A stretch of DNA of 40,825 bases from contig DAIDKO010000100.1 in the NCBI GenBank assembly GCA_027450005.1, forward strand, positions 1 through 40,825. Reading direction: 5' to 3'. Shown one piece after another: positions 10,954 through 33,742 of the stretch (its first letter is position 1; each line of letters starts with the position of its first letter). The DNA comes from Rhodanobacter sp. (GTDB lineage Bacteria; Pseudomonadota; Gammaproteobacteria; Xanthomonadales; Rhodanobacteraceae). Under the pieces are notes generated by a model. It did not search any database, was not told where the DNA came from, and saw nothing but the letters and a program-made list of their open reading frames with translations. The position numbers and the translations under genes are program-made.

Positions 10954-11396
10954 GGAACCGCTCACGTAGGTACTCCCGGTCGGTGGATCGTCCGGAAGGC
11001 CCCTTCGGCGCCTAGCCAGCCTGCGGCTACCGGGTGCCTGCAGCCACCGCGACCGCGGGCGGCGGGCAGCTTCAAGTTCTGGAGTATAGACGAAGCCGCC
11101 GGCAAGGTTCCCGCGGGCGGTAGCGGTTTTCCGTCGCGTCCGCATGGAACTGCAGGGGGCAGGCGCCGGTCGGAGTCCGTCTGCCGGGTGGACGCGCACG
11201 GATCGACCCGGCGACAAGACGCCGAGAGGCCATATCCCCTTTACATAGCTTTACATGCACCACCTGCCATCGGTCATGCCCCACCCCTGACAATTGGCAT
11301 TGTTCCAGCGTGCTGCACTGCGCCTATGCTTCGTTTACATCGGCCGGCCACCCACCCCTTGCCCGGCAGCACCGCATCCACATCGGGAGTTCCTGC
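10954..11396. other. 443-bp intergenic region between divergent genes
   Basis: No gene is supported here in either strand. It must carry promoters for cytochrome c5 (leftward) and the RND operon (rightward). A TATGCT at about 11325 with TTGTTC 19 nt upstream could be a weak -10/-35 for the RND operon. Tandem CTTTACAT repeats are listed separately. Confidence 0.5.
11239..11256 (+). promoter_or_regulatory. Tandem CTTTACAT direct repeat, possible regulator site
   Basis: CTTTACAT occurs at 11239-11246 and 11249-11256, a 10-bp period that puts both copies on one face of the helix; a third TTTACAT lies at 11334-11340. Direct repeats with this period are typical of OmpR-family response-regulator sites. 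They precede an MdtA-like gene, and E. coli mdtABC is controlled by a two-component system (BaeSR), but the motif is not the BaeR box. Confidence 0.35.
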
Positions 11397-12617
11397 ATGT
11401 CGCGTTTTTGGAAGATCGCGCTGATCGTCGTTGCGGTGGTCGTGCTGGCTATCGTCGCCCTGCGGTTGCTGCATAGGCCCGCTGGCGCGGCCGGACCCGG
11501 TGGCCGTGGCGGCATGCGCGGTAAGGACAACGCCGCGGTGCCGGTCACCGTGGTGCCGGTGGTCCGGGAAAACGTGCCGGTCTACCTCACCGCGCTGGGC
11601 ACGGTGCAGGCGCTCAACACCATCACCGTGAATCCGCAGGTGAGCGGCCAACTGGTCAAGCTCGACTTCACGGAGGGCCAGCCGGTGAAGAAGGGCCAGG
11701 TGCTCGCCGAGATCGATCCGCGCACCTACCAGGCCAGCTACGATCAGGCGGTGAGCAAGCGCAGCCAGGACGAGTCGCTGCTGGCGACGGCGCGCAGCAA
11801 CTACGAGCGCTCGAGGAATCCGAAATACAGCCAGTACGTGGCCAAGATCGACCTGATCACCCAGCACAACACGGTGCAGCAGTACGAGGCGGCGGTGGCG
11901 GCGGACAATGCGGCGATCCGCGACGCCAAGGTGCAGCTCGACTACACCAAGATCATTTCGCCGATCGACGGTGTGGCCGGCATCCGCGGCGTGGATCCCG
12001 GCAACGTGGTAAGCACCAGCAGCAACATCGTCACGCTGACCCAGCTGCACCCGATCAACATCATGTTCAACCTGCCCGAGCAGAACCTGGACATGGTGCG
12101 CAAGGCGCAGCTGGCCGCGCCGCTTCAGGTCACCGCGCTCGACCGCACCGATGCGCACCCGGTAGCCACCGGCGGCGTGCTCAAGGTGATCGACAACCAA
12201 ATCGACACCTCCACCGGCACGTTCCGCCTGAAGTCGCAGTTTCCGAACGTGGACAGCGCGCTATGGCCGGGCCAGTTCGTCAATGTGCGCCTGCAGGTGC
12301 GCGTGGATGACGGTGCGCTGGTGATCCCGTCCGAGGCGGTGCAGCGCGGGCCCGACGGCGACTACGTCTACCAAGTGCAGGGCGACAACACGGTCAAGAT
12401 GCAGCCGGTGGTGGTCGCAGGCGAGGTGGGCGACAGCCACGTGATGATCGCCAGCGGTCTGGAGATGGGCGACCAGGTGGTCACTGAGGGCCAGTTCCGC
12501 CTGAAGCCCGGCAGCAAGGTCAACCCGCTCAAGCCCGGTGAAGTGCCGCCGGTGCCTAGCGACGCTGAATTGCAGAAGGCCAAGCAGCAGGTCAAGGGCG
12601 GCTTCCGCCGGCACTGA
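11397..12617 (+). CDS. RND efflux periplasmic adaptor, MdtA/MuxA-like
   Basis: A 406-aa membrane fusion protein. An N-terminal helix (about 6-24) anchors it; the biotinyl-lipoyl half motif (VSGQLVKLDFTEGQPVKKGQVLAEID) and its partner (YTKIISPIDGVAGIRGVDPGNVV) flank a short alpha-hairpin, then the beta-barrel and membrane-proximal domains follow. It links the inner-membrane pump to an outer-membrane channel. The ATG at 11397 has GGGAG 7 nt upstream. Two RND permeases follow 95 bp downstream, the order found in mdtABC and muxABC. The basic C-terminus (KQQVKGGFRRH) is not a family motif. Confidence 0.9.
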   Translation: MSRFWKIALIVVAVVVLAIVALRLLHRPAGAAGPGGRGGMRGKDNAAVPVTVVPVVRENVPVYLTALGTVQALNTITVNPQVSGQLVKLDFTEGQPVKKGQVLAEIDPRTYQASYDQAVSKRSQDESLLATARSNYERSRNPKYSQYVAKIDLITQHNTVQQYEAAVAADNAAIRDAKVQLDYTKIISPIDGVAGIRGVDPGNVVSTSSNIVTLTQLHPINIMFNLPEQNLDMVRKAQLAAPLQVTALDRTDAHPVATGGVLKVIDNQIDTSTGTFRLKSQFPNVDSALWPGQFVNVRLQVRVDDGALVIPSEAVQRGPDGDYVYQVQGDNTVKMQPVVVAGEVGDSHVMIASGLEMGDQVVTEGQFRLKPGSKVNPLKPGEVPPVPSDAELQKAKQQVKGGFRRH

Positions 12618-12712
12618 TCGGAGCACGCCGCGCCTGGCGGCGGGCCATGCAGCATCGCCCGGCACCTCGAGCCGGCGCGCAGGACGCCACCCAGACAGAA
12701 GCTCGGACAACC

Positions 12713-15700
12713 ATGGGATTCTCGACGCTCTTCATCCGCCGCCCAATCGCCACTTCGCTGCTGATGGTGGCGATCCTGCTGCTCGGCATCCTGGGCTACC
12801 GCCAACTGCCGGTGTCGGCGCTGCCCGAGATCGAGGCGCCCAGCCTGGTGGTCACCACCCAGTACCCCGGCGCCAGCGCCAACACCATGGCGGTGCTGGT
12901 CACCACGCCGCTGGAGCGCCAGTTGGGGCAGATCTCCGGCCTCACCATGATGAGCTCGGATTCCTCGGCCGGCTTGTCCACCATCGTGCTGCAGTTCGCC
13001 ATGAACCGCGACATCGACGTGGCCGCGCAGGACGTGCAGTCCGCGATCAACCAGGCACGCGGCGTGCTGCCCAACAACCTGCCGTACCCGCCGGTCTACA
13101 ACCGGGTGAACCCGGCCGACGCGCCGATCCTCACGCTGTCGTTGCAGTCGGATAGCCGCCCGCTGCGCTACGTCAATGACCTTGCCGACTCGATCCTGGC
13201 GCAGAAACTCTCGCAGGTGCCGGGCGTCGGCCTGGTCTCGATCGCTGGCAACGTGCGCCCGGCGGTGCGCGTGCAGGTGAACCCGGCGCAGCTTTCCAAC
13301 CTCGGGCTGACGCTGGAAGACGTGCGCAGCGCACTGACCCAGGCCAACGTCAACGCGCCAAAGGGCACCCTGAACGGCAAGACGCAGAGCTACTCCATCG
13401 GCACCAACGACCAGCTCAGCGACGCCGCCGAGTACAGGAACACCATCATCGCGTACAAGAACAACGCGCCGGTAAAGCTTTCCGACGTTGCCAACGTGGT
13501 CGACGGCGTCGAGAACGACCAGCTCGCCGCATGGGCCAACGGCAAGCCGGCGGTGCTGCTGGACATTCGCCGCCAGCCCGGCGCGAACATCGTCGAGACC
13601 GTGAAGCAGATCCGCGCGATCCTCCCCGAGCTGCGAGCGGTGCTGCCGGCCGACGTGCACCTCAACGTCTTCGCCGACCGCACCGTCACCATTCGCGCCT
13701 CGGTAGAGGACGTCCAGTTCACCCTGCTGCTGACCATCTTCCTGGTGGTGGCGGTGATCTTCGTGTTCCTGCGCCGGCTGTGGGCCACGGTGATCCCCTC
13801 GGTGGCGGTGCCGTTGTCGCTCCTCGGCACCTTCGGCGTGATGAGCTTCACCAGCATGTCTTTGGACAACCTGTCGCTGATGGCGCTCACAGTGGCCACC
13901 GGCTTTGTAGTGGACGATGCGATCGTGATGATCGAGAACATCGTGCGCTACATAGAGCAGGGTAAGAGCGGCAAGGAGGCGGCCGAACTAGGAGCGAAGG
14001 AGATCGGTTTCACCGTACTGTCGCTGACCGTGTCGCTGATCGCGGTGTTCCTACCGCTGCTGCTGATGCCCGGCGTCACCGGCCGGCTGTTCCACGAGTT
14101 TGCCTGGGTGCTGACCATCGCGGTGGCGATCTCGATGCTGGTGTCGCTGACCCTGACGCCGATGATGTGCGCCTACCTGCTGCGCCCGGACCAGCTGCCG
14201 GAGGGCGAGGACGCGCACGAGCGCCACCTGGCCGCCGGCAAGATCACCGTGTGGGCGCGCACCGTGGGCGTGTACGAAAGGTCTCTGGACTGGGTGCTCG
14301 ACCACCGGAAGCTGATGATCCTGGTCGCCGCGGCCACGGTAGCGGTCACCGTGTTCCTGTACATCGCCATCCCCAAGGGCCTGCTGCCCGAGCAGGACAC
14401 CGGCATGATCACCGGCGTGGTGGAAGCTGACCAGAACGTGGCCTTCCCGGCGATGGAGCGGCGCACCAAGGCGGTGGCCAGCGCCCTGCGCAAGGATCCT
14501 GCAGTAGCCGGCGTGGCGGCCTTCATCGGCGCCGGCACGATCAACCCCACGCTCAACCAGGGCCAGCTTTCCATCGTGCTGAAGGACCGCAGCCAGCGCG
14601 ATGGGTTGGACAAGATCTTGCCGCGGCTGCAGCGCGAAGTGGCCGACATCCCGGGCGTGGCGCTCTACCTCAAGCCGGTGCAGGACGTGACGCTGGACAG
14701 CACGGTGTCGGCGACCGAGTACCAGTACGCGCTTTCCGATACCGACATGGCGGAGCTGGCGAAATACGCCACCAAGATGACCCAGGCGCTGCGCCAGCGG
14801 CCCGAGCTGTCGGAAGTGGGCAACAATCTTGCCGACCAGGGCAATTCGCTCAAGCTGACCATCGACCGCGACAAGGCGAGCCGCTTGGGCGTGCCGGTGC
14901 AGGCCATCGACGACACGCTGTACGACGCGTTCGGCCAGCGCCAGATCTCCACCATCTTCACCCAGCTGAACCAGTACCGCGTGGTGCTGGAGGTGGCGCC
15001 GCAGTTCCGCACCACCACCGGCTTGCTGGACCAGCTCACCGTGCGAGGCAACGGCAACGGCGCGCTCACCGGCAGCAACGCCACCAGCTTCGGCCAGCTG
15101 AAATCCAGCAACTCGGCCACCCCATCGGGCATCGGCAACACCGGCAACGTGGGCTTCGCCATCGGCGCGGGCGGCACCATTCCGCTGTCGTCGCTGGTCA
15201 GCGCCAAGACCACCAACGCGCCGCTGGTGATCAGCCACCAACAGCAGCTGCCGGCGGTGACGCTGTCGTTCAACGTGGCGCCGGGCTACTCGTTGTCCGA
15301 CGCGGTCACCGCGATCCACAAGGTGCAGTCACAGCTGAAGTTCCCGCCGACGCTGCGCGGCGAGTTCATCGGCAAGGCCGCAGAGTTCTCCAACAGCCTG
15401 GGCGACGAGGTGCTGTTGCTGCTTGCCTCGATCATCGTGATCTACATCGTACTGGGCGTGCTCTACGAGAGCTACATCCACCCGCTGACCATCATCTCCA
15501 CCTTGCCTCCGGCCGGCGTGGGTGCGCTGTTGGCGCTGATCCTGTTCGGCATGGACCTTTCGGTGGATGGCATCGTGGGCATCGTTCTCCTGATCGGTAT
15601 CGTCAAGAAGAACGCGATCATGATGATCGACTTCGCGATCGAGGCGCAGCGGAAGGGCATGGGGGCGCGCGAGGCGATCCGCCGTGCCTGCCTGCTGCGC

Positions 15701-15955
15701 TTCCGCCCGATCATGATGACCACCGCCGCCGCCATGCTGGGCGCGCTGCCGCTGGCGCTGGGCAATGGCATCGGCGCCGAGCTGCGCCGGCCGCTGGGCG
15801 TTTCCATCGTGGGCGGACTGCTGTTGTCGCAGCTGGTGACGCTGTACACCACGCCGGTGATCTACCTGTACATGGAGCGCTTCCAGGAGTGGCTGCGCGA
15901 ACGCCGGGAGCGTCGCGCTCTGGCTCGGGCGCAGGCTGGTGGCGCGGCGCATTGA
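12713..15955 (+). CDS. RND multidrug efflux permease, MdtB/MuxB-like
   Basis: A 1080-aa inner-membrane proton-driven exporter. It starts with FIRRPIATSLLMVAILLLGILGYRQLPVSALPEIE, close to MdtB, and has the two repeated six-helix halves. The proton-relay acidic pair is in ATGFVVDDAIVMIENI on TM4, and the C-terminal half has GIVKKNAIMMIDFAIEAQ and LLRFRPIMMTTAAAMLGALP. A Gly/Ser/Asn-rich insert of about 40 residues (roughly 780-825) in the second periplasmic loop is not in the MdtB I recall. The ATG at 12713 places the FIRRP block at the N-terminus. In E. coli MdtB and MdtC work as a heterotrimer, and an MdtC-like gene follows here. Confidence 0.93.
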   Translation: MGFSTLFIRRPIATSLLMVAILLLGILGYRQLPVSALPEIEAPSLVVTTQYPGASANTMAVLVTTPLERQLGQISGLTMMSSDSSAGLSTIVLQFAMNRDIDVAAQDVQSAINQARGVLPNNLPYPPVYNRVNPADAPILTLSLQSDSRPLRYVNDLADSILAQKLSQVPGVGLVSIAGNVRPAVRVQVNPAQLSNLGLTLEDVRSALTQANVNAPKGTLNGKTQSYSIGTNDQLSDAAEYRNTIIAYKNNAPVKLSDVANVVDGVENDQLAAWANGKPAVLLDIRRQPGANIVETVKQIRAILPELRAVLPADVHLNVFADRTVTIRASVEDVQFTLLLTIFLVVAVIFVFLRRLWATVIPSVAVPLSLLGTFGVMSFTSMSLDNLSLMALTVATGFVVDDAIVMIENIVRYIEQGKSGKEAAELGAKEIGFTVLSLTVSLIAVFLPLLLMPGVTGRLFHEFAWVLTIAVAISMLVSLTLTPMMCAYLLRPDQLPEGEDAHERHLAAGKITVWARTVGVYERSLDWVLDHRKLMILVAAATVAVTVFLYIAIPKGLLPEQDTGMITGVVEADQNVAFPAMERRTKAVASALRKDPAVAGVAAFIGAGTINPTLNQGQLSIVLKDRSQRDGLDKILPRLQREVADIPGVALYLKPVQDVTLDSTVSATEYQYALSDTDMAELAKYATKMTQALRQRPELSEVGNNLADQGNSLKLTIDRDKASRLGVPVQAIDDTLYDAFGQRQISTIFTQLNQYRVVLEVAPQFRTTTGLLDQLTVRGNGNGALTGSNATSFGQLKSSNSATPSGIGNTGNVGFAIGAGGTIPLSSLVSAKTTNAPLVISHQQQLPAVTLSFNVAPGYSLSDAVTAIHKVQSQLKFPPTLRGEFIGKAAEFSNSLGDEVLLLLASIIVIYIVLGVLYESYIHPLTIISTLPPAGVGALLALILFGMDLSVDGIVGIVLLIGIVKKNAIMMIDFAIEAQRKGMGAREAIRRACLLRFRPIMMTTAAAMLGALPLALGNGIGAELRRPLGVSIVGGLLLSQLVTLYTTPVIYLYMERFQEWLRERRERRALARAQAGGAAH

Positions 15956-15975
15956 CGAGCGCCGCACGCCGGCGT

Positions 15976-16017
15976 TGCCATTCCGCGCGGCGAAACGTCC
16001 ACCGTTTCGCGGCGCGC
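15976..16017 (+). other. Strong hairpin between the two RND permease genes
   Basis: GCGAAACG (15990-15997) and CGTTTCGC (16003-16010) form a perfect 8-bp stem with a 5-nt loop, and a CG-rich outer stem continues after one mismatch. It has no T-run. Within the operon it may set differential mRNA stability or partial termination, lowering the second permease. Confidence 0.5.
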
Positions 16018-16072
16018 ACATTCTTCAGCACATGAATTGCAATCCATCCACAACGAACCGCGGGTGCCGGAC

Positions 16073-19000
16073 ATGAACATCTCCGGTATCTTCATCCGAC
16101 GCCCCATCGGTACCTCGCTGCTGGCGGCGGGCGTGCTGGTGGCCGGCCTGATCTGCTACCTGCTGCTAGGCGTGTCGGCGCTGCCGGACATGCAGTTCCC
16201 GGCGATCTTCGTGCAGGCCAGCGAGACCGGCGCGGACGCCACCACCATAGCTTCCACCGTGGCCGCGCCGCTGGAGCGCCATCTCGGCCAGGTGCCCGGC
16301 ATCGAGATCATGAACTCGCACAGCTCGGAGGGCCGCACCTTCGTGTTCATGATGTTCGACGGCGGCGTGAACCTGGATTCCGCCGCGCGCGACGTACAGG
16401 CGGCGATCAACGCCGCGATTCCCGACCTGCCGGCGGGGGTGACGCCGAACTACGAGAAAGCCAACCCGAACGATGATCCGGTCATCGCCATCGCGCTGAC
16501 CTCGGAGACGCAGTCGGCCGGCGACCTGTACAACCTAGCCGATACTCTGCTGGCGCAGCGCCTGCGCCAGCTGAAGGGCGTCGCCTCGGTGGACATCGCT
16601 GGCGCCGCCACGCCGGCGATCCGGGTCGACGTTAATCTGCGCGCGCTGAACGCGATGGGGCTGTCGTCGGACGACCTGCGCAACGCGCTCACCGCCGCCA
16701 ACGTCACCTCGCCGGAGGGCTTCCTGACCAACGGCAAGACCACCATGGCGATCAGTTCTACCGCCCAGCTGCACACCGCGGACGACTTCGCCAAGCTGGT
16801 CATCGCGATGAGGAACGGCGTGCCGGTACGGCTTGCTGACGTGGCGCACGTCTATCTAGGGACCCAGGACGCCTACCAGTCCGCCTCTTTCCAAGGCAAG
16901 CCGGCGATCCTGATGTACGTGTTCAAGAAGTCCGACGCCAACGTCATCGCCACGGTGGACGAAGTGCGGGCGCAGTTGCCGCTGCTGCGCGACTACCTGC
17001 AGCCGGGCACGAAGATGACGCCGTTCTTCGACGACACGGCTACCATCCGAGCGTCGCTGCACGAAGTGCAGGCCACGCTGCTGATCTCACTGGCGATGGT
17101 GGTGCTCACCATGGCGCTGTTCCTGCGCCGTCTCGCCCCCACCCTTATCGCCGCGCTGACCGTACCGCTGTCGCTGGCCGGCGCCTTTGTGGTGATGTAC
17201 GTCCTCGGCTTCACCCTCAACAACCTCACCCTGCTAGCGCTGGTGATCGCGATCGGCTTCGTGGTGGACGACGCGATCGTGGTGATCGAGAACATCATCC
17301 GCCACATCGACGCCGGCATGACGCGTATGGAGGCCACGCTGGCGGGCGCCAGGGAGATCGGCTTCACCATCGTCTCGATCACCGCCTCGCTGATCGCGGT
17401 GTTCATCCCGCTGCTGTTCGCCGGGGGCTTCACCGGCATGTTCATGCACGACTTCGCGGTGACCCTGGTCTCGGCTATCGTGATGTCGGCGATGGTCTCG
17501 CTCACGCTGACGCCGGCATTGTGCGCGCGCTTCCTCAATGAACACGACGCGCAGGAAAAGCCATCGCGCCTCGGCCACGCGCTGGATCGCTTCCATGCCG
17601 GCATGCAGTCCGTCTACGCCAGGGCGCTGTCGTTCTCGCTGCGCCACGCGCTGGCATTCGCGCTGACACCGCTGGCGCTGATCGGGCTCACCTTCTTCCT
17701 GTTCGGCGTGGTCAAGAGCGGTTTGTTCCCGCCGCAGGACACCGGGCTGATCTGGGGCCGCGCCACTTCCAGCGCCACCGTCTCGTTCGCGCAGAGCGCG
17801 GACCGCATGCGCCGCTTCACCGAGATGATCCTGGCCGATCCGGATGTGGCCAGTGTAGGCACCCGACTGGGCACCAGCTGGCATGGCACCAGCGGCTCGT
17901 TCAACATCGACCTGAAGACCCGTGCGCAAGGCCGCAAGGACAACATGTTCGCCGTGCTGGCGCGGCTCAGCGCCAAGGCCGACAAGTACCCCGACCTCAA
18001 CCTGCGGCTGCGCCCGCTGCAGGACCTGCCGAGCGCCGGGGGCGGCGGCACCAGCCAGGGTGCGCAGTACCAGGTCGGCCTGCAGGGCGACGACCTCGCA
18101 GAATTGCAGGTATGGCTGCCGAAGCTGGTGGCGCAGCTGAGAAAGAATTCAAAGCTGCAGGACGTCGGCAGCGACGTGGACGAGCAGGGCCTGCGCCAGG
18201 AGATCGTGGTCGACCGCGCCACCGCGGCGCGTCTAGGGGTATCGCTGGGCGCCGTCGACGGTTCGCTCTACGACGCCTTCGGCCAACGTGCGGTGTCCAC
18301 CATCTATTCGGATACCAACCAGTATTCGGTGGTGGTTAACGCGCTGCCGAACCAGACCGCCACGCCGGAAGCGCTGAACCGGATCTACGTGAAATCCACG
18401 ACGGGGACGATGGTCCCGATCACCGCGGTGGCGAAGCAGGTGCCGGGGCTGGCGCCGTCGTCGATCACCCACGAGAACCAGCGCACCACCATGGACCTCA
18501 GTTTCAACCTCGCGCCCGGCGTGAGCATGGGCGAGGCGATGGCGATCGTGCAGTCGACGGTTGCCAACATGCGCATGCCGGGCGACATCAAGCTCAACAT
18601 CGGCGGCGATTTCCGCCGCTTCCGCGACGTGCAGAACGGCATGTCGCTGCTGGTGCTGGCGGCCATCCTCACCGTCTACATCGTGCTCGGCATGCTGTAC
18701 GAGAACCTGATCCACCCGGTCACCATCCTGTCCACCCTGCCGGCGGCGGGCGTGGGTGCGCTGCTGGCGCTGTGGATCACCGACACCGAGCTGTCGGTGG
18801 TGGCGCAGATCGCGCTGGTGCTACTGATCGGCATCGTGAAGAAGAACGCGATCATGATGATCGACTTCGCCCTGGGCGCCGAACGCGAACATGGCAAGAC
18901 GCCGCTGGAAGCCGCGCGGGAAGCCTGCCTGGTGCGCTTCCGCCCGATCATGATGACCACCATGGTGGCCATCCTCGCCGCGGTGCCGATCGCGGTGGGG

Positions 19001-19204
19001 CTGGGCGAGGGCAGCGAGTTGCGCCGCCCGCTCGGCATCGCGCTGATCGGCGGCCTGCTGATCTCGCAGAGCCTCACCCTGCTCAGCACGCCGGCGTTGT
19101 ACGTGGTGTTCTCCTGCCTCGGCGCACGCTTCAAGGCATGGCGTGTGCGTTGCGCCGAGCGGCGCCGCGCACACCATGCGGCGTCGGTTAGGCTGCCGGG
19201 CTGA
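16073..19204 (+). CDS. RND multidrug efflux permease, MdtC-like
   Basis: A 1043-aa RND exporter, paralogous to the gene before it. It begins MNISGIFIRRPIGTSLLAAGVLVAG and keeps the TM4 acidic pair (AIGFVVDDAIVVIENIIRHIDAGM), the PPQDTGLIWG loop and the C-terminal GIVKKNAIMMIDFALGAE and LVRFRPIMMTTMVAIL blocks. The ATG at 16073 is preferred because it opens the FIRRP block; an earlier in-frame ATG at 16037 would add 12 residues. As in mdtABC, the two permeases probably assemble together and share the adaptor at 11397. No outer-membrane channel gene follows, so the pump must borrow one, perhaps that at 34915. Confidence 0.92.
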   Translation: MNISGIFIRRPIGTSLLAAGVLVAGLICYLLLGVSALPDMQFPAIFVQASETGADATTIASTVAAPLERHLGQVPGIEIMNSHSSEGRTFVFMMFDGGVNLDSAARDVQAAINAAIPDLPAGVTPNYEKANPNDDPVIAIALTSETQSAGDLYNLADTLLAQRLRQLKGVASVDIAGAATPAIRVDVNLRALNAMGLSSDDLRNALTAANVTSPEGFLTNGKTTMAISSTAQLHTADDFAKLVIAMRNGVPVRLADVAHVYLGTQDAYQSASFQGKPAILMYVFKKSDANVIATVDEVRAQLPLLRDYLQPGTKMTPFFDDTATIRASLHEVQATLLISLAMVVLTMALFLRRLAPTLIAALTVPLSLAGAFVVMYVLGFTLNNLTLLALVIAIGFVVDDAIVVIENIIRHIDAGMTRMEATLAGAREIGFTIVSITASLIAVFIPLLFAGGFTGMFMHDFAVTLVSAIVMSAMVSLTLTPALCARFLNEHDAQEKPSRLGHALDRFHAGMQSVYARALSFSLRHALAFALTPLALIGLTFFLFGVVKSGLFPPQDTGLIWGRATSSATVSFAQSADRMRRFTEMILADPDVASVGTRLGTSWHGTSGSFNIDLKTRAQGRKDNMFAVLARLSAKADKYPDLNLRLRPLQDLPSAGGGGTSQGAQYQVGLQGDDLAELQVWLPKLVAQLRKNSKLQDVGSDVDEQGLRQEIVVDRATAARLGVSLGAVDGSLYDAFGQRAVSTIYSDTNQYSVVVNALPNQTATPEALNRIYVKSTTGTMVPITAVAKQVPGLAPSSITHENQRTTMDLSFNLAPGVSMGEAMAIVQSTVANMRMPGDIKLNIGGDFRRFRDVQNGMSLLVLAAILTVYIVLGMLYENLIHPVTILSTLPAAGVGALLALWITDTELSVVAQIALVLLIGIVKKNAIMMIDFALGAEREHGKTPLEAAREACLVRFRPIMMTTMVAILAAVPIAVGLGEGSELRRPLGIALIGGLLISQSLTLLSTPALYVVFSCLGARFKAWRVRCAERRRAHHAASVRLPG

Positions 19205-19416
19205 GCGCGTCTTTCCCAGCTCCCCGGTGGGTACGCGGGGACGCCGGCGGGGGGCGGCTTTGCGGGGTGGTCGTTGCGCTGCTCGCCCGGGTGACGAAGC
19301 GGTTCGGGGTGCGTCGGCCAGGCTGAACGCGCAGCCATTCCACCGCGCGTAAGCGTCGCACTCGCCTTAAGATGACAGTCCGGTGTCCGCCGGGTTGCCA
19401 TCGTGGGACGTGCAGC

Positions 19417-21135
19417 ATGATCCGGTTTCCGTCGCATCGCATGCGCAGCAGCGTGGTGCGGGTGCTCGCCGCGCTGGCGTTCGCAGGCTGTGCGTGGACC
19501 ACGGTCTGGCCGGAGCCGGCGGTGTTGCAGAAGCTGTTCGTGCTGGTGCTGATGCTGTTCGCCGCCGGCGCCTTGCTTTGCGCCACCGGGCGCCTTGCCT
19601 GTTCGCTGCTGCTGGGCGGCGGCCTGTTCCTCGGGCTGCGCTTCATCTCCGCACTCAAGGAGAACTACCTCGAGACGGCGCTGATGCCGGCGGATTTCGT
19701 CTATTACGCGCGTTCCAGCCTGATCGCCACGCTGCGCCATTACCCGCATCTGTACCTGCTTGGCGTCGGCGTGATGGTGCTGGTGCCGTCGGTGCTGGCG
19801 CTGGCGTGGAAGCTGGACCGGCCGCTGTTTGCGTGGCGGCGCGGCTGGGGGCAGGCAGCCTGGCGGACCGGCGGTGTCCTGCTGTGCGCGGTGGGGTTCC
19901 GCCTGTGCCTGCTGCCGGGCGGTCCGTTTGCCAGCCTGCACCACCGCGATGTATGGGACAAGCTGTCCGACGACGCCCAGCTCACCAACTTCTTCGTCAA
20001 CATCGACGACGACGGCGTGCGGATGCCGGCGATGGCCGATGACGCAGCCGCGCAGCGGCAGTGGGCCGCCACAGAGCATGCCGGGCCCGGCGCGCGGCCG
20101 GCGCCGTACCCCGATATCGTCCAGGTGCTGGAGGAGAGCACCTTCGATCCATCGATTTTCGCCGCTTGCGACGTGCCGAGCTGCCGGTTCGCGATGTTCC
20201 GGCCCGACGCGGACACGCGCGGCAGCGGCCTGCTGCGCACGCACACCTGGGGCGGCGGTACCTGGGTCAGCGAGTTCGCCGTGTACACCGGCCTGCCGCA
20301 GGACATCTTCGGGGCCGGTGGCATGTACGCGCCGTTCGTGCTGGCGCCGCACGTGCACGACACGCTGCCCGACCTGCTACGCCGGCTGGGCTACCTCACC
20401 ATCGCGATCTATCCCACCAACGGCGCTTTCCTCAATGGCCGCGACGCTTACCGCGCCTACGGTTTCGACCATCTCTACGGTGCGGGCGAACTGGGCTTGG
20501 ACGAGTGGGAGGAGACCGACGCGCAGATGTTCGCCGCGGCCAAGCGAGTCTATGACGAGGTGAAGAAGCCGGGCCAGCCGGTGCTCGTGATGATCCTCAC
20601 GATCAACCAGCACGGCCCGCACGACGACAACCCGATGGCCAAGCTGCCGCCGCCTTGGCGCAACCTGGTGCGGGGGCTTGCCGGCAAGGGCGAGAGCGCG
20701 CTGGATTTCGATACCTACCTGTGGCGCCTGCACGATTCCGACGTGGCGATGCGGCGCTTGGAGCACGATTTCCTCGATCGCCGCCAGCCCACCGTGCTGG
20801 TGCACTTCGGCGATCACGAGCCATCGTTCGACGGACTGATCCGCCCGCTGGCGCGCACGCTGCCGCCCGCGCTGGCGCCGGAGCGCGATTTCCTCACCTA
20901 CTACATGATCAAGAGCAACTTCGCCGGGCCGCCGCTGCCGAGCTACCCCGCGCTGGACATCGCCTTTCTGCCGACCATGGTGCTGCAGGCCGCGGGCTTG
21001 CCCGCCGATTCGTACTTCTCCGCCGCCACCGCCTTGCGCGACCGCTGCCAAGGCCGCTTCGACGACTGCCCGGACAAGGCGCTGCTGGCCTCCTACTACG
21101 CGTGGATCTTTCACAGGCTGCACGTGTATGAGTGA
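19417..21135 (+). CDS. Sulfatase-fold membrane enzyme, LtaS/OpgB-like phosphoglycerol or phosphoethanolamine transferase
   Basis: A 572-aa protein with about five N-terminal transmembrane helices (within residues 12-165) and a periplasmic sulfatase-fold domain (230-560). The catalytic Thr is probably Thr282 in GGGTWVSEFAVYTG, with metal ligands Glu239 or Glu240 in QVLEESTFDPS and Asp466-His467 in VHFGDHEPS; His399 in TINQHGPHD also matches. Relatives transfer phosphoglycerol or phosphoethanolamine onto lipids, glucans or lipid A; the acceptor here is unknown. The ATG at 19417 has GGGACG upstream; an ATG at 19441 is an alternative. The stop overlaps the start of the YhhN gene by 8 bp, so the two are translationally linked. 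Confidence 0.88.
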   Translation: MIRFPSHRMRSSVVRVLAALAFAGCAWTTVWPEPAVLQKLFVLVLMLFAAGALLCATGRLACSLLLGGGLFLGLRFISALKENYLETALMPADFVYYARSSLIATLRHYPHLYLLGVGVMVLVPSVLALAWKLDRPLFAWRRGWGQAAWRTGGVLLCAVGFRLCLLPGGPFASLHHRDVWDKLSDDAQLTNFFVNIDDDGVRMPAMADDAAAQRQWAATEHAGPGARPAPYPDIVQVLEESTFDPSIFAACDVPSCRFAMFRPDADTRGSGLLRTHTWGGGTWVSEFAVYTGLPQDIFGAGGMYAPFVLAPHVHDTLPDLLRRLGYLTIAIYPTNGAFLNGRDAYRAYGFDHLYGAGELGLDEWEETDAQMFAAAKRVYDEVKKPGQPVLVMILTINQHGPHDDNPMAKLPPPWRNLVRGLAGKGESALDFDTYLWRLHDSDVAMRRLEHDFLDRRQPTVLVHFGDHEPSFDGLIRPLARTLPPALAPERDFLTYYMIKSNFAGPPLPSYPALDIAFLPTMVLQAAGLPADSYFSAATALRDRCQGRFDDCPDKALLASYYAWIFHRLHVYE

Positions 21136-21796
21136 GGCACCGGCTACGCGCGGGTTGGCCGCGGCGACGCTGCTCGCCGCCTGCGCTGCGATTGGCGGTG
21201 CGTTGCTCGCTGCGCACTCGCCGGACGGGCGCTGGCTGCACTGGATCGCCAAGCCGCTGGCGACGGCCTTGGTTTTCGCGCTGGCGCGGCGCGCGCGGCC
21301 GGCGGTGTCGGCACGCTATCGGCATTTCGTGCTGACCGGCATCGGCTGCTCGCTGGCGGGCGACGTGCTGCTGATGCTGCCGGGCGACCTGTTCGTGCCG
21401 GGGCTGGTGGCGTTCCTGCTCGGCCATGCATGCTTCATCGCCGCCCTGCTCGGCGACAGCCGTTTCGCGGTGCCGGCGTGGCCGCTGCTTGCCTGCCTCG
21501 CCTACGGCATCGCCAACCTGGCCGCGCTGTGGGGCGCGATCGCGGCGCCGCTCCGCGTGCCGGTGGTCGTCTACGTGGCGGTGCTGTGCAGCATGACCGG
21601 GCAGGCACTGGCGCGTGCCTTGCGTGGCGACGCCCCGGCGCGGCTGGCGGCGCGTGGCGCGCTGCTGTTCATGCTGAGCGATAGCGTGCTGGCCTGGGAC
21701 CGCTTCCGCGGCCCGTTGCCACTGGCCAGCCTGTGGGTGCTGGCGACGTATTATCTGGCGCTGTGGTGGATCGCCCGTTCGGTGCAAAAGGCATGA
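21128..21796 (+). CDS. YhhN family membrane protein, putative lysoplasmalogenase
   Basis: A 222-aa polytopic protein of seven or eight helices with the YhhN/TMEM86 signatures: IAKPLATALVFALA, GCSLAGDVLLMLPG with GLVAFLLGHACFI, and the C-terminal ALLFMLSDSVLAWDRF. The human relative TMEM86B hydrolyses the vinyl-ether bond of lysoplasmalogens; bacterial YhhN proteins have the same fold and some show that activity. The ATG at 21128 overlaps the previous stop and its own TGA overlaps the ATG of the next gene (ATGA). The neighbour is also an ether-lipid type enzyme, which supports a lipid ether-cleaving role. Substrate not shown by sequence. Confidence 0.85.
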   Translation: MSEAPATRGLAAATLLAACAAIGGALLAAHSPDGRWLHWIAKPLATALVFALARRARPAVSARYRHFVLTGIGCSLAGDVLLMLPGDLFVPGLVAFLLGHACFIAALLGDSRFAVPAWPLLACLAYGIANLAALWGAIAAPLRVPVVVYVAVLCSMTGQALARALRGDAPARLAARGALLFMLSDSVLAWDRFRGPLPLASLWVLATYYLALWWIARSVQKA

Positions 21797-23046
21797 ATAC
21801 GCAGGAACTCATCATCACGTTGGCCACGCCGGTGTTCTTCCTGCTGATGGGCATCGAACTGCTGGTGGCAAAGCTGCGCGGACGTGACGTCTACGCCAGC
21901 AACGACGCAATCAATAGCATCGGCCTGGGTGCGATCTCGCAGCTGGTGGCGGTGTTCGCCAAGCTGCTCACCATCGGCATCTACGCGTGGTGTGCCGGGC
22001 ACCTCGCGTTGTTCCGCCTGCCAGCGGACAGCATGGCGGTATGGATAGGCGCCTTGCTCACCTACGACTTCTGCTACTACTGGCTGCACCGCATGGGCCA
22101 CGAGGTGAACATCCTGTGGGCCGCCCACGTGGTGCACCACCAGAGCGAGCGCTACAACCTCTCCACTGCGCTGCGCCAGACCGGCAGCGGCGTGCTGCTC
22201 GGCTGGGTTTTCTACCTGCCGCTGGCAATCCTCGGCGTGCCGGTGCAGGTGTTCGTGGTGGTGGCGCTGATCGACCTGCTGTACCAGTTCTGGGTGCATA
22301 CCGAGCAGATCGGCCGGCTGGGCTGGTTCGACCGCGTGTTCTGTTCGCCGTCCAACCATCGCGCGCACCACGCGGTGAACGACCGCTACCTCGACCGCAA
22401 CTACGGCGGCATCCTGATCTTGTGGGACCGACTGTTCGGCAGCTTCGTGGAAGAGGACGCCGCCGACCCACCGGTGTACGGCACGCGCTCCCCGCTGCGA
22501 AGCTGGAACCCGCTGTGGGCGAATGCCGAGGTGTACTGGCGTACTGCCCAGGATGCCTGGCACGCACGGTGCTGGCGCGACAAGCTGCTGGTCTGGCTAA
22601 AGCCGCCGGGCTGGCGTCCGGCGGACGTGGCGGCGCGTTTCCCCAAGCCGGATTTCGCGATGCCCACCGAGCGCTACGACCCGCCTGTGAGCGCGCCGCT
22701 GAAGGGCTACGTGCTGCTGCAGTTCGCCCTGCTGCTGGGCATGGTCACGCAGTTCCTCGGCATCACGGAGCGCGTGGGCCTGCCGACGCTGCTGCTCTAC
22801 GCGATCTGGCTGGTGCTGGGCATCTGCGTGCTCGGCGCCCTGATGGAAGGCCGGCGCTGGGCGTGGTGGGCGGAGGGCGCGCGGATGCTCGTGCTTGCGG
22901 TGTCGCCGCTGGCCAGCGGCCGCTGGTTTGGCGTGGCACATCTGGATGTCCGCATCGCCCTGGCCTTCGCGCTGGTGTTCGGCGCGAGCGCGCTGGCCCT
23001 GCCGTGGCTGCGCCGGGCCACGCCGCTGCCCGCGCTACCGGCGTGA
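21793..23046 (+). CDS. Alkylglycerol monooxygenase-like di-iron enzyme (fatty acid hydroxylase superfamily)
   Basis: A 417-aa integral membrane protein with the eight-His di-iron motif: HRMGH (99-103), HVVHH (112-116) and HRAHH (189-193). Around these it reads much more like animal alkylglycerol monooxygenase (AGMO/TMEM195) than like a sterol desaturase: YNLSTALRQ, GWVFYLPLA, LLYQFWVHTEQIG and RNYGGILILWDRLFGSF are all AGMO blocks, and it has a C-terminal set of helices. AGMO cleaves the ether bond of alkylglycerols by hydroxylating next to it. The animal enzyme needs tetrahydrobiopterin; no pterin gene is in this window. The ATG at 21793 overlaps the YhhN stop by an ATGA. Family membership is firm, substrate inferred. 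Confidence 0.85.
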   Translation: MNTQELIITLATPVFFLLMGIELLVAKLRGRDVYASNDAINSIGLGAISQLVAVFAKLLTIGIYAWCAGHLALFRLPADSMAVWIGALLTYDFCYYWLHRMGHEVNILWAAHVVHHQSERYNLSTALRQTGSGVLLGWVFYLPLAILGVPVQVFVVVALIDLLYQFWVHTEQIGRLGWFDRVFCSPSNHRAHHAVNDRYLDRNYGGILILWDRLFGSFVEEDAADPPVYGTRSPLRSWNPLWANAEVYWRTAQDAWHARCWRDKLLVWLKPPGWRPADVAARFPKPDFAMPTERYDPPVSAPLKGYVLLQFALLLGMVTQFLGITERVGLPTLLLYAIWLVLGICVLGALMEGRRWAWWAEGARMLVLAVSPLASGRWFGVAHLDVRIALAFALVFGASALALPWLRRATPLPALPA

Positions 23047-26312: not shown

Positions 26313-28235
26313 GTGAACCTTTCCGTCCTTCGTCCCCGCCTGATCGCTGCCGCCGTCGCCGGCGTGCTCTCGTTGTCCGCCTTGCATGCGCAGGATGCCA
26401 GCCGCCCCGCGCCGGTGGACGCGCCGTACGCCGGCATGCTCACGCTGAAAGTGGACCTCACCGATGCGCCGAAGCGCATGTTCCGCGTGCAGGAGACAAT
26501 CCCAGTGAAGCCGGGCGCCTTCACGCTGCTTTACCCGGAGTGGATCCCCGGCGAGCACGCCCCGTCCGGCCCGATCCAGAACGTGACCGGCCTGGTGATC
26601 ACCGCCAACGGCAAGCAGCTCGCATGGCGGCGCGACCTGCGCGACATGTACGCGATCCACCTCGACGTGCCGCAGGGCGTGAGCCAGCTCGACCTCTCGT
26701 TCCAGTTCCTCTCGCCCGCGCCGGGCCAGGGCAGCCTGTTCGGCGCCAGCGCCTCGTCCACGCCGAACCTGGTGGACGTTGAGTTCAACCAGGTGGCGTT
26801 CTATCCGGCCGGCTACTACTCGCGCGACTTCCAGATCCAGCCCACCGTGCAGCTGCCCGCGGGTTGGAAGTTCGGCACCGCGATGGAAGTGGCCAGCCAG
26901 GCCGGCGGCACCGTGCAGTTCAAGCCGCTGACCTTCAACAACCTGGTGGATTCGCCACTGATCGCGGGCGAGTATTTCAACCGGGTCGACCTCTCGCCGG
27001 GTGCGAAGGCGCCGGTGCACCTGAACGTGGTGGGCGACGACGCCAAGGACGTCAAGCTCACCGACAAGCAGCTGGCGCAGCAGCGTGCGGTGGTGAAGCA
27101 GACCAACCTGCTGTTTGGCGCGCACCACTACAGCCACTACGACTTCCTGCTCACGCTGTCCGACCACACCGGCCACTTCGGCCTGGAGCATCACCAGTCC
27201 AGCGACGACCGCCTGCCGGCCGACTTCTTCACAAACAATGACATGCACACGCTGGCCGCCAGCCTGATGCCGCACGAGTTCGTGCATTCGTGGAACGGCA
27301 AGTTCCGCCGTCCGGCCGACCTTTGGACGCCGAACTTCAACGTGAAGATGCAGGACGACCTGCTGTGGGTCTACGAAGGCCTCACCGATTACTGGTGTAG
27401 CGTGCTCACCGCGCGTGCCGGCCTGTGGTCGCCCCAGCAGTTCCGCGACACCATGGCCAACATCGACGCGTCGATGAGCGAGCGCACCGGCCGCAGCTGG
27501 CGTTCGCTGCAGGACACCGCCGATGCCGCGCCACTCACCTACTACGGCGGCGGCGACTGGGCCAACTGGCGCCGTGGCACCGACTTCTACCCCGAAGGCC
27601 AGCTGCTGTGGCTGGACGTGGACACCAAGATCCGCGAGCTCTCCGATGGCAAGCACTCGCTGGACGATTTCGCGCACGCCTTCTACGGCATGGACAACGG
27701 TAGCTACGTCACCAAGACCTACACCTTCGACGACGTGGTGAAGACGCTCAACCAGGTGCAGCCGTATGATTGGGCCAAGTTCCTGCGCGAGCGGCTGGAC
27801 TACACCGGCCCGAATCTGCCCGAGCACGGTATCGCGCGCGGCGGCTGGAAGCTGGTCTACACCGACAAGCCCAACGCGCAGACCAAGGCGATGGAGAGCA
27901 TCCGCCACGGCGCCGACCTGGCCGCTTCGCTGGGCCTCACCGCATCGAAGAGCGGCACCATCTACGACGTGCAGTGGAACGGCCCGGCGTTCAAGGCCGG
28001 CCTCGTACCCGGACTCGACATCGTCGCGGTGAACGGCAAGGACTACTCGCCGGATGCGCTGAAGGACGCCGTGAAGGCGGCCAAGGGCGGTAGCGCGCCG
28101 ATCGAGCTGCTGGTGAAGAACGTCGACGTCTACAGCACCGTGAAGGTCGACTACCACGGCGGCCTGCGCTATCCGCACCTGGTGCGCGCCGGCGGCAAGG
28201 ACTGGCTTGACGCCATCGGTACCGCACGCAAGTAA
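26313..28235 (+). CDS. Secreted M61 family metallopeptidase with PDZ domain (glycyl aminopeptidase type), paralogue 1
   Basis: A 640-aa periplasmic or secreted zinc peptidase. A signal peptide (residues 1-26, ending SALHAQ) is followed by the M61 N-terminal beta domain (35-240), the catalytic domain with HEFVH (321-325) and the third ligand Glu355 in YEGLTDYW, and a C-terminal PDZ domain (about 530-610, with VQWNGPAFKAGLVPGLDIVAVNGKDY). Family enzymes such as Sphingomonas glycyl aminopeptidase remove N-terminal Gly or Ala. The GTG start at 26313 is chosen because GGAG lies 8 nt upstream and it begins the signal peptide. A strong terminator follows the gene, so it is a separate transcript from its paralogue. 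Confidence 0.93.
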   Translation: MNLSVLRPRLIAAAVAGVLSLSALHAQDASRPAPVDAPYAGMLTLKVDLTDAPKRMFRVQETIPVKPGAFTLLYPEWIPGEHAPSGPIQNVTGLVITANGKQLAWRRDLRDMYAIHLDVPQGVSQLDLSFQFLSPAPGQGSLFGASASSTPNLVDVEFNQVAFYPAGYYSRDFQIQPTVQLPAGWKFGTAMEVASQAGGTVQFKPLTFNNLVDSPLIAGEYFNRVDLSPGAKAPVHLNVVGDDAKDVKLTDKQLAQQRAVVKQTNLLFGAHHYSHYDFLLTLSDHTGHFGLEHHQSSDDRLPADFFTNNDMHTLAASLMPHEFVHSWNGKFRRPADLWTPNFNVKMQDDLLWVYEGLTDYWCSVLTARAGLWSPQQFRDTMANIDASMSERTGRSWRSLQDTADAAPLTYYGGGDWANWRRGTDFYPEGQLLWLDVDTKIRELSDGKHSLDDFAHAFYGMDNGSYVTKTYTFDDVVKTLNQVQPYDWAKFLRERLDYTGPNLPEHGIARGGWKLVYTDKPNAQTKAMESIRHGADLAASLGLTASKSGTIYDVQWNGPAFKAGLVPGLDIVAVNGKDYSPDALKDAVKAAKGGSAPIELLVKNVDVYSTVKVDYHGGLRYPHLVRAGGKDWLDAIGTARK

Positions 28236-28265
28236 GACGCGGGATTCCGGCGTCCGCCGCCGGAG

Positions 28266-28306
28266 AACGGACAAGACGGCCGCCGCAGGGCGGCCGTCGC
28301 CGTTTG
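28266..28306 (+). terminator. Terminator after the first M61 gene
   Basis: GACGGCCGCC (28275-28284) and GGCGGCCGTC (28289-28298) form a perfect 10-bp stem with a GCAG loop, with AACGG and CCGTT adding an outer stem and a GTTTG tail. Confidence 0.7.
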
Positions 28307-28392
28307 CGTCGCAGGATGCTGCTGTCGCCCGCGCGCCTGCCGCACAGTTCTTGCGGATGGCCGCGCTGCGCCTCCTGCCGGCACGCCGTGGC

Positions 28393-28440
28393 CATGACCT
28401 CTGGCAGGGGAGTGTGTGCGCCTGCGGGTCTAGCATCGGG
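28393..28440 (+). promoter_or_regulatory. Conserved 48-bp element upstream of the second M61 gene
   Basis: The left block CATGACCTCTGGCAGGG is identical to that before the first M61 gene; after 20 bases comes CTAGCATCGGG, one base different. The right block ends 54 bp before the TTG start. Sequence between the blocks is not conserved, which argues for a functional site rather than simple duplication. Confidence 0.6.
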
Positions 28441-28494
28441 CTTTGACCCCGCATATTGCGTGTTGCAGCGGGGCTTCGCCCCAGGAGACACCCC

Positions 28495-30414
28495 TTGAAA
28501 GTCACCAACCTTGCCGCCGCCCTGATCGTCGCCGGTCTCGGCCTCGCCGCGGTTCCCGCCCACGCCGACATCAATCGCAGCGGCAACGTGCCGCCGCCGC
28601 AGGACGTGCCGTACGCCGCCGGTACGCTGCAGATCCATGTCGACGCTACCGACGTCGACCACCGCATTTTCCGCGTACACGAAGTGATCCCGACTGCATC
28701 GGGCCCGCTCACACTGCTGTACCCGCAGTGGTTGCCGGGCGATCACGAGCCGTCGGGCACGATCGACAAGCTGGCTGGCCTGGTTGTCAAGGCCGGCGGC
28801 AAGACGCTGAGCTGGACGCGCGATCCGTTCAACGTGTTCGCCTTCCATGTCGACGTACCGCAGGGCGTGCAGTCGGTGGACGTGGACTTCGTCTACCTGT
28901 CGCCGCAGAACCCGCGCCAGGGCCGGGTGCTGATGACGCCGGAAATGTTCGACTTGCAGTGGAGCAGCAACTCAATCTATCCGGCTGGCTACTACACCAA
29001 GGACATCAAGGTCGACGCCAGCGTCACCTTCCCGGCCGGCTGGCAGTTCGGCACCGCGCTGGACGTGGCCTCGCGCGACGGCAACACGGTGAACTTCAAG
29101 ACCATCACCTACAACGACCTGGTCGACTCGCCGATCTACGCCGGCAAGTATTTCAAGCGCATCGATCTGGCGCCGGGCGCCAAGGCGCCGGTGCACCTGG
29201 ACATCGTCGCCGACGACCCGAAGGACCTCGCCGTCACGCCGGAGCAGGTCAAGATCCACCGCAACCTCGTGCAGCAGATGTACAAGCTGTATGGCGCGCA
29301 CCACTACAACCACTACGACTTCCTTCTCTCGCTCAGCGACAAGATGGGCGGCGAAGGCCTGGAGCATCACCGCTCCAGCGAGGACGGTACCGGTCCCGGC
29401 TACTTCACCAAGTGGAAGCAGGACTGGGCCATGCGCGACCTGCTCTCGCATGAGTTCAACCACTCCTGGGACGGCAAGTACCGTCGTCCGTACAACCTGT
29501 GGACGCCGAACTTCAACGTGCCGATGGGCGACAGCCTGTTGTGGGTGTACGAAGGCCAGACCCAGTTCTGGGGCCAGGTAGTGGCCGCGCGCTCGGGCCT
29601 GTGGAGCGACGACCAGTTCCGTGACATGCTGGCCAATGTGGCCGCCACCTATGATCGCGGCCGCCCCGGCCTGGCCAGCTGGCGCAACGTGCAGGACACC
29701 ACCAACGACCCGCCGATCGCCCAGCGCGCGCCGCTGCCGTACCGCAACTACCAGGGCAGCGAGGACTACTACAGCGCCGGCCAGCTGATCTGGCTGGATG
29801 TGGACGGCAAGCTACGCGAACTGACTCACGGCAAGAAGAACATCGACGACTTCGCCCGCGCCTTCTTCGGCATGGACAACGGTTCGTGGACAGTCAACAC
29901 CTACCACTTCCAGGACGTGGTGAACACGCTCAACAGCCTGGCGCCGTACGACTGGACCAAGTACCTGCGTACACGCCTGGACGGTCACGGCCCCTTGATC
30001 GGCGGCCTAGAGTCGCACGGCTGGAAGCTGGTCTATACCGACGAGCCATCGCCCGCGGTCAAGGCGATCGAGGCTCACTACCACTTCACCAACCTTACCT
30101 ACTCGATCGGCGTGGCGGTAGGCAAGGGCGGTCACATCGCCGACGTGTTGTGGAACGGACCCGCGTTCAAAGCCGGCCTGTCGCCGGGCATGACCATCGT
30201 CGCGGTGAACGGCCAGGACTACAGTAACGACGCGCTGGCCGCCGCGGTCACGGCCGCCGCCAAGGACAAGAGCAAGCCGATCCAGCTGCTGGTCAAGAAC
30301 TTCAACGAGTTCAAGACCATCGACATCGACTACCACGACGGCCTGAAGTACCCGCACCTGATACGCGACACCAGCAAGCCGGATACGCTGACTACGCTGA
30401 TCAAGCCGCTCTGA
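28495..30414 (+). CDS. Secreted M61 family metallopeptidase with PDZ domain, paralogue 2
   Basis: A 639-aa paralogue of the preceding peptidase with the same architecture: signal peptide (1-24, ending VPAHA), beta domain, catalytic domain with HEFNH (319-323) and Glu353 in YEGQTQFW, and a C-terminal PDZ domain with LWNGPAFKAGLSPGMTIVAVNGQDY. The residue between the two halves of the zinc motif differs (HEFVH versus HEFNH) and the stretch after it reads SWDGKYRRPYNLWTPNF. The start is a TTG at 28495, chosen because AGGAG sits 8 nt upstream and it begins the signal peptide; no ATG is suitable. The two enzymes may have different substrate preferences while sharing a regulatory element. Confidence 0.93.
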   Translation: MKVTNLAAALIVAGLGLAAVPAHADINRSGNVPPPQDVPYAAGTLQIHVDATDVDHRIFRVHEVIPTASGPLTLLYPQWLPGDHEPSGTIDKLAGLVVKAGGKTLSWTRDPFNVFAFHVDVPQGVQSVDVDFVYLSPQNPRQGRVLMTPEMFDLQWSSNSIYPAGYYTKDIKVDASVTFPAGWQFGTALDVASRDGNTVNFKTITYNDLVDSPIYAGKYFKRIDLAPGAKAPVHLDIVADDPKDLAVTPEQVKIHRNLVQQMYKLYGAHHYNHYDFLLSLSDKMGGEGLEHHRSSEDGTGPGYFTKWKQDWAMRDLLSHEFNHSWDGKYRRPYNLWTPNFNVPMGDSLLWVYEGQTQFWGQVVAARSGLWSDDQFRDMLANVAATYDRGRPGLASWRNVQDTTNDPPIAQRAPLPYRNYQGSEDYYSAGQLIWLDVDGKLRELTHGKKNIDDFARAFFGMDNGSWTVNTYHFQDVVNTLNSLAPYDWTKYLRTRLDGHGPLIGGLESHGWKLVYTDEPSPAVKAIEAHYHFTNLTYSIGVAVGKGGHIADVLWNGPAFKAGLSPGMTIVAVNGQDYSNDALAAAVTAAAKDKSKPIQLLVKNFNEFKTIDIDYHDGLKYPHLIRDTSKPDTLTTLIKPL

Positions 30415-33732: not shown

Positions 33733-33742
33733 GGGCTCTCGC

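Follow-up and report, generated by a model that had tools for sequence, protein, structure and literature searches.

Results

An overlapping YhhN–oxygenase gene pair in Rhodanobacter

The window analysed here is a stretch of 40,825 nucleotides from Rhodanobacter sp. (contig DAIDKO010000100.1), in which two genes of likely membrane proteins overlap on the forward strand. The first (21128..21796) encodes a YhhN-family protein of 222 amino acids, of the TMEM86 type and lysoplasmalogenase-like (Pfam PF07947, 136.8 bits; cut-off 25.6), and the second (21793..23046 including the stop codon, with its ATG at 21793) encodes a di-iron oxygenase of 417 amino acids resembling alkylglycerol monooxygenase (AGMO), which matched the Pfam FA_hydroxylase model PF04116 at 107.9 bits (cut-off 31). 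The two share the stop-start sequence ATGA at 21793..21796, as the initial annotation of this DNA had reported, and its second observation, that YhhN also overlaps the sulfatase-fold membrane protein gene upstream (19372..21135, forward strand; PF00884, 70.7 bits), was likewise confirmed, by 8 nucleotides (21128..21135). Its description of the pair as "fused by overlap" holds for the overlap; the window genes are separate, and true fusions were found only in other genomes. The source genome (2.9 Mb, 164 contigs, 87.7% complete) contains four FA_hydroxylase proteins and, at that completeness, one YhhN. Among the best 80 of 586 named relatives, the window oxygenase was 97% identical to the protein of a proteobacterial metagenome-assembled genome (MAG), 74% to that of a 'Lysobacteraceae' MAG, 72% to that of a Rhodanobacter MAG and 71% to that of Dyella japonica.

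Conservation of the pair in the Rhodanobacteraceae

The family survey covered 197 genomes, with a full-length oxygenase orthologue defined by E<=6.5e-131 (the next match, at 1.7e-59, was short) and one genome, G015, excluded from the count as its oxygenase lies in two pieces. Full-length oxygenases were present in 93 of the 197 genomes and YhhN matches in 78 (76 above cut-off), and where both genes occurred YhhN lay directly upstream on the same strand in 64 of 73 genomes, the conserved adjacency for which the initial annotation had suggested a search. The nine non-adjacent cases belonged to two genera, g4 (four genomes, genes about 8 kb apart) and g15 (five genomes, unlinked). With identical junctions and one pair lacking a start codon dropped, loci L006-L065 gave 39 distinct junctions, of which 33 overlapped by exactly 4 nucleotides, four were spaced by 6 nucleotides, one by -1 and one by 28. 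Because the 4-nucleotide overlap is so widely kept, the pair looks translationally coupled in this family. The downstream permease and M61 peptidase genes were also syntenic in several family regions, so synteny within the family is by itself no proof of a functional link. The sulfatase-fold gene was considered as a third member and rejected: of 20 family regions fetched, 12 carried both genes of the pair and only 2 had a tblastn match to the sulfatase-fold gene, which therefore falls outside the conserved unit.

Fusions and other arrangements outside the family

Named genomes were scanned with an alignment of 18 family members, and the 80 loci referred to above, as the best of 586 relatives, favour close kin; their flanks extended to 5 kb at most and were shorter where contigs were small. 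A YhhN match lay within the locus in 30 of the 80, and in 23 the oxygenase and YhhN formed one polypeptide. All 23 fusions matched both Pfam models, were 498-612 amino acids long from the likely start, and ran oxygenase-YhhN, the opposite order to the window. Their record titles named Burkholderiales or taxa below it in 21 cases (Variovorax 5, Hydrogenophaga 4, Rhodoferax 4, Acidovorax 3, Delftia 1, Comamonadaceae 2, Burkholderiales 2), the remaining two being titled beta proteobacterium and Proteobacteria. Unfused neighbours comprised five loci with YhhN upstream (L091, L093, L097, L098 and L099), one with the oxygenase first (L141, Quisquiliibacterium) and one adjacent by a partial YhhN match only (L095).

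Starting from YhhN instead, we scanned as much as 4 kb to either side of 110 of the 113 YhhN matches in 398 Pseudomonadota genomes (the window itself, G014 and G891 were left out). A custom profile found an FA_hydroxylase near eight of them: five fusions, one adjacent gene on the same strand (G893, YhhN then oxygenase) and two convergent genes about 1 kb away (G861 and G879). As only these eight are linked and all eight FA_hydroxylases gave high AGMO-like profile scores, the link is specific, yet confined to a minority of YhhNs. A further arrangement was seen in G032 (L081, 3983-5604), where a short AGMO-like protein with 38% identity and no C-terminal region is followed by YhhN, in reverse order to the window; this YhhN retains all eight residues of the catalytic set described below.

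Relationships were estimated with a quick maximum-likelihood tree (113 rows after removal of 27 redundant ones; support by the SH-like approximate likelihood ratio test, SH-aLRT, only), rooted on six other FA_hydroxylases, among which L311 stood apart from the rest; animal AGMO was not among the rows. The window oxygenase fell in a Rhodanobacteraceae branch; the fusions sat apart from it in a Burkholderiales branch (two label changes, a count blind to gain versus loss), with L141, G893 (itself a long branch) and the short pair of G032 placed elsewhere in a tree where several long branches meet. Since the arrangements differ (YhhN first, YhhN last, fused), we argue that the link probably arose more than once. 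The recurrence of adjacency, overlap and fusion in other lineages places the pairing beyond chance, and we regard the pairing of YhhN with an AGMO-like oxygenase as well supported.

Catalytic residues and domains of the oxygenase

Nine histidines and six further residues (Q162, D233, N235, Y236, W243 and D244) are reported as essential in human AGMO, in the cited part of that study (PMC7911779). All 15 have equivalents in the window oxygenase at an offset of 33 or 32 residues: a first histidine cluster H99, H103, H112, H115 and H116 (22087..22140), Q129, corresponding to Q162 (22177..22179), H169, corresponding to H201 (22297..22299), H189, H192 and H193 (22357..22371), and D201, N203, Y204, W211 and D212, corresponding to D233 through D244 (22393..22428). 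No residue of the set varied among the 18 family orthologues, a single change (Y to F) occurred across the 80 named loci, and three changes (two D to N, one Y to H) across 30 phylum loci, the window included.

For comparison we aligned six other FA_hydroxylases, two of them paralogues from the source genome (L002 and L003) and four from elsewhere (L311, L316, L317 and L319); the fourth FA_hydroxylase of the source genome, L004, was missed by the profile and lies outside the alignment. These six had all nine histidines and the majority of the D/N/Y/W/D residues, and carried G, D, H, H, H and A, respectively, at the Q162 position. The three blocks that the initial annotation had called AGMO-specific are all present (residues 121-129, 162-171 and 203-218), yet only partly deserve the term: the glutamine ending YNLSTALRQ is what best separates the clade of the window oxygenase from the other compared proteins. 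Five short AGMO-like proteins had Q at this position in three cases and L in two.

The region at 22699..22899 (forward strand) resembles the AGMO C-terminal domain AGMP_C (PF24858) below threshold. The same domain was recognised at E<=0.1 in 17 of the 18 members of the family alignment A1 (best 1.1e-7) and at E<=0.001 in 22 of the 35 members of alignment A4. As a whole-genome marker for AGMO it was tried and discarded: five of 369 class genomes matched, one above cut-off (G435), and as the G435 protein, L311, has no equivalents of Q162 and Y236, AGMP_C alone is a poor marker of bacterial AGMO. One fusion, in L160 (4989-6482), has no AGMO C-terminal region, and its oxygenase core nearly abuts YhhN; from this near-direct join, YhhN may take the structural place of that region.

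Against NCBIfam, the sole match of the window oxygenase at E<=0.001 was the ornithine-lipid hydroxylase OlsE, scoring 71.4 bits where the cut-off is 475. The source genome has two further FA_hydroxylases with weak OlsE matches (58.9 and 46.1 bits), so the match is generic. The plasmanylethanolamine desaturase model PF10520 (CarF/PEDS1) gave no match to the window oxygenase at E<=0.001.

An AlphaFold2 model of the window oxygenase had a predicted local distance difference test score (pLDDT) of 86.8 and a predicted template modelling score (pTM) of 0.84; a model of one fusion scored 80.8 and 0.79 and was poor around residues 181-238. Neither contributed much to the interpretation. Foldseek returned no match to either model in the PDB at E<=0.001. 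VIA-align gave mostly generic helical bundles, and among the 50 matches listed only 4zr0_B (Scs7p) has its range within the hydroxylase part (Z 6.2, root-mean-square deviation 5.8, 178 aligned, 15% identity), within the range of unrelated rows. A PDB sequence search with the oxygenase and YhhN found no convincing relative, the few matches being to unrelated proteins at E 0.05 to 1.2.

Catalytic residues of YhhN

Eight residues of TMEM86A/B were tested by mutation and all but one glycine found crucial, according to the cited part of the report (PMC11994398). The window YhhN carries all eight TMEM86A-tested residues (K42, G78, D79, H100, G177, S184, D185 and Y208), as do 14 of 14 members of alignment A2 and 22 of the 23 fusions. 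Among the phylum YhhNs (loci L201-L310), counted for the 88 of 110 scoring above 20 bits, the set was complete in all six that are adjacent or fused, one of the two convergent and 47 of the 80 unlinked. An intact set is thus not exclusive to linked YhhNs, since the unlinked L083 and L084 of A2 are also complete. Of the 80 unlinked phylum proteins, 33 miss at least one of the eight residues, frequently the histidine or else the second aspartate, and some YhhNs may accordingly be something other than lysoplasmalogenases, judging by these residues.

Co-occurrence with YhhN and with pterin enzymes

Within the 398 Pseudomonadota genomes we scored the long oxygenase as present when the best match reached E<=2e-121, a threshold that we set at full-length matches and that selected 32 genomes. 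YhhN was found in 24 of these 32 genomes versus 82 of the 366 others (by genus, 15/20 versus 49/193; p 1.7e-5), and in 46 of 62 genomes with the short form only. Biopterin_H, the phenylalanine-hydroxylase family, showed the same tendency, with 29 of 32 versus 101 of 366 (by genus, 18/20 versus 58/193; p 2e-7), and was present in all 15 genomes of the genus, the source genome included, which also has a pterin carbinolamine dehydratase gene. The initial annotation had held that a bacterial AGMO would have to rely on a different electron donor or on a pterin of its own; this needs correcting, as the Biopterin_H and dehydratase genes offer a ready answer, and to judge from gene content the phenylalanine-hydroxylase-type genes would largely settle the cofactor worry.

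Discussion

Proposed function of the pair

We lean, with caution, towards the gene pair being one functional unit that would cleave ether-linked lysolipids in the bacterial membrane. The ether-lipid module proposed in the initial annotation is thereby kept in its outline, with AGMO-type residues, a YhhN that appears catalytically complete and a conserved adjacency behind it, and the fusions, the strongest new evidence, are added here. For the substrates, the cofactor and the shared intermediate we infer the following course. A phospholipase would free the sn-2 position; the AGMO-like enzyme, with O2 and a tetrahydropterin (probably the one also serving phenylalanine hydroxylase), would then hydroxylate the carbon beside the alkyl ether and give a hemiacetal. 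YhhN would hydrate lyso vinyl ethers to the same kind of hemiacetal, and both routes would end in a fatty aldehyde and a glycerophospho-alcohol. The pair could in this way clear both kinds of ether lysolipid, either as detoxification or as a source of carbon and glycerophosphate.

This course draws on a review of animal AGMO (PMC3617469), the cited part of which describes an enzyme that acts on lyso ether lipids with a free sn-2 hydroxyl but not on vinyl ethers, uses tetrahydropterins specifically and forms a hemiacetal. A coupled or fused pair fits such chemistry, because the substrates would be complementary, the need for a lysolipid and the kind of product the same, and the intermediate probably the same. 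Whether the AGMO hemiacetal rearranges purely spontaneously or with the aid of an enzyme is given in that part of the review as an open question. Since its own vinyl-ether hydrolysis would pass through the same hemiacetal, YhhN is a candidate for this activity and may also make the oxygenase's product collapse faster. In the strongest form, which we consider unlikely, YhhN would be the second enzyme of alkyl-ether cleavage, the Burkholderiales fusions would channel the hemiacetal and the toxic aldehyde, and animal AGMO and TMEM86 would by extension be partners.

Evidence against an ether-lipid role and rival explanations

A number of observations weigh against an ether-lipid unit. The partnership is far from universal: 20 of the 93 family genomes with the oxygenase and eight of the 32 long-oxygenase Pseudomonadota genomes have no YhhN, none was seen in the fetched stretch, short in some cases, for 50 of the 80 named relatives, 31 of which are Pseudomonas, and hemB lies downstream in both Pseudomonas loci with scanned neighbours. 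The co-occurrence figures handle kinship by genus collapse only and leave genome size uncorrected; YhhN and Biopterin_H are associated regardless of the oxygenase (75/106 versus 55/292), and within Biopterin_H genomes the link between oxygenase and YhhN is weaker (24/29 versus 51/101; p 0.0025). The AGMP_C match of the window oxygenase, at 23.5 bits, is under the cut-off of 28.3, and none of the 23 fusions matched that domain at E<=0.01. These bacteria are not known as makers of ether lipids, and PF10520 was not found in the 15 genomes of the genus in a search without a positive control, an absence that weighs little because the controls gave no match either. The oxygenase's substrate, moreover, cannot be read from its family, because the AGMO-like PRUB680 acts on prodigiosin, as described in the cited part of its report (PMC6667630). 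The di-iron enzyme might then hydroxylate one of the bacterium's own acyl or amino-acyl lipids, with YhhN handling the product and no ether lipid involved, and besides PRUB680 and the two points on ether-lipid synthesis, the OlsE match speaks for this. That match is shared by the paralogues, however, which also miss the equivalent of Q162 that the clade keeps, and the vinyl-ether activity of bacterial YhhN is reported, in the cited part of the study, as specific to lysoplasmalogen (PMC9052158). We regard this explanation as possible, if on the doubtful side.

In a strict series, by contrast, the di-iron enzyme would dehydrogenate an alkyl ether to a vinyl ether that YhhN then hydrolyses. This would account for the fusion of both enzymes, and the wider di-iron superfamily includes desaturases; the residue set, however, is that of AGMO, a hydroxylase, the desaturase model PF10520 does not match, and AGMO cleavage is described in the cited part of the review without a required partner (PMC3617469), so that such a series seems quite improbable. 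The gene order might also be merely inherited, with no shared function, as the synteny of the permease and M61 genes and the 102 of 110 phylum YhhN loci without an FA_hydroxylase within 4 kb would allow, the latter figure counting against the ether-lipid unit as well. The Burkholderiales fusion, the reversed orders, the further pairings in other lineages and the retained 4-nucleotide overlap leave this very unlikely.

Relation to known systems

Both enzyme types are already known in bacteria: PRUB680 is an AGMO-like prodigiosin cyclase of Pseudoalteromonas rubra, and YhhN proteins of Mycobacterium tuberculosis and Legionella pneumophila are reported lysoplasmalogenases (EC 3.3.2.2), as far as the cited parts of the two reports go (PMC6667630, PMC9052158). 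The new part is their coupled, in places fused, pairing, of which we found no description in the open-licence literature (full text; more widely, titles and the starts of abstracts among the papers listed). With animal AGMO (TMEM195, EC 1.14.16.5) the window enzyme shares the nine histidines and six essential residues at near-constant spacing and a C-terminal region weakly recognised by AGMP_C; it differs in being bacterial, of 417 amino acids, under the AGMP_C cut-off, paired or fused with YhhN, and known from its sequence. PRUB680 is likewise bacterial and is described as AGMO-like; in the cited account it differs by acting in pigment biosynthesis. The window YhhN has the Pfam family and all eight tested residues in common with TMEM86A/B and the bacterial Lpg1991 and Rv1401, and differs from them by its coupling to a di-iron oxygenase (fused in relatives), no partner being mentioned in the cited parts of those reports (PMC9052158, PMC11994398). 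With OlsE the oxygenase has the FA_hydroxylase core in common and falls far below that family's cut-off.

M. tuberculosis has no plasmalogens, and YhhN is common in bacteria unable to make them, and its role there has been questioned, as stated in the cited part of PMC9052158; the animal enzyme AGMO is labile and was still unpurified at the time of the review, per the cited part of PMC3617469. The gene pair and its natural single-chain fusions offer a tractable system for both the role of YhhN and the fate of the AGMO hemiacetal. The pairing gives a genetic hint that both ether-lipid activities are connected; the enzyme likenesses, the apparent coupling of translation and the fusion in relatives suggest a joint ether-lipid cleaving machine, and that some soil and water bacteria may be able to eat or disarm ether lipids.

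Neighbouring genes and other features

Twenty flanking open reading frames (ORFs) from ten loci, picked with a plain ORF rule instead of a gene caller, were searched for a pathway theme; their products (hemB, CorA, RuvB, queuosine synthesis, polyphosphate kinase and others) gave no lipid theme, and this line was dropped. The gene hemB, for delta-aminolevulinic acid dehydratase, was seen close to the AGMO-like gene in L130, L132, L099 and L100 (two Pseudomonas, Undibacterium and Collimonas), with or without an intervening YhhN.

Annotated plasmid relatives of the oxygenase, among the 40 of 218 matches listed, mostly bear the name 'sterol desaturase family protein'. In two plasmids, pF076 (L354, 3992-5799) and pKV29 (L355, 3992-5808), the AGMO-like gene is followed with a 4-nucleotide overlap by a gene that at first seemed to be YhhN; neither Pfam nor the custom profile recognises its membrane-type product of 196 amino acids as YhhN. 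It has a weak DUF6962 match in one plasmid, and IS91-family transposases lie within 4 kb. It is possibly a second kind of small partner for AGMO-like genes.

Elsewhere in the window, an HlyD periplasmic adaptor gene and two consecutive RND permease genes (11310-19204) resemble MdtABC-type efflux systems. A tandem pair of M61 peptidase genes lies at 26313-30414, an M61 gene being near the oxygenase in several family regions also. Two ORFs of 360 and 440 amino acids (31384-33804), putative as genes, had no Pfam match at E<=0.001. At 37571-39847 a diguanylate cyclase carries GAF and GGDEF domains and then, toward the C-terminus, a protoglobin-like domain, an order that seems unusual.

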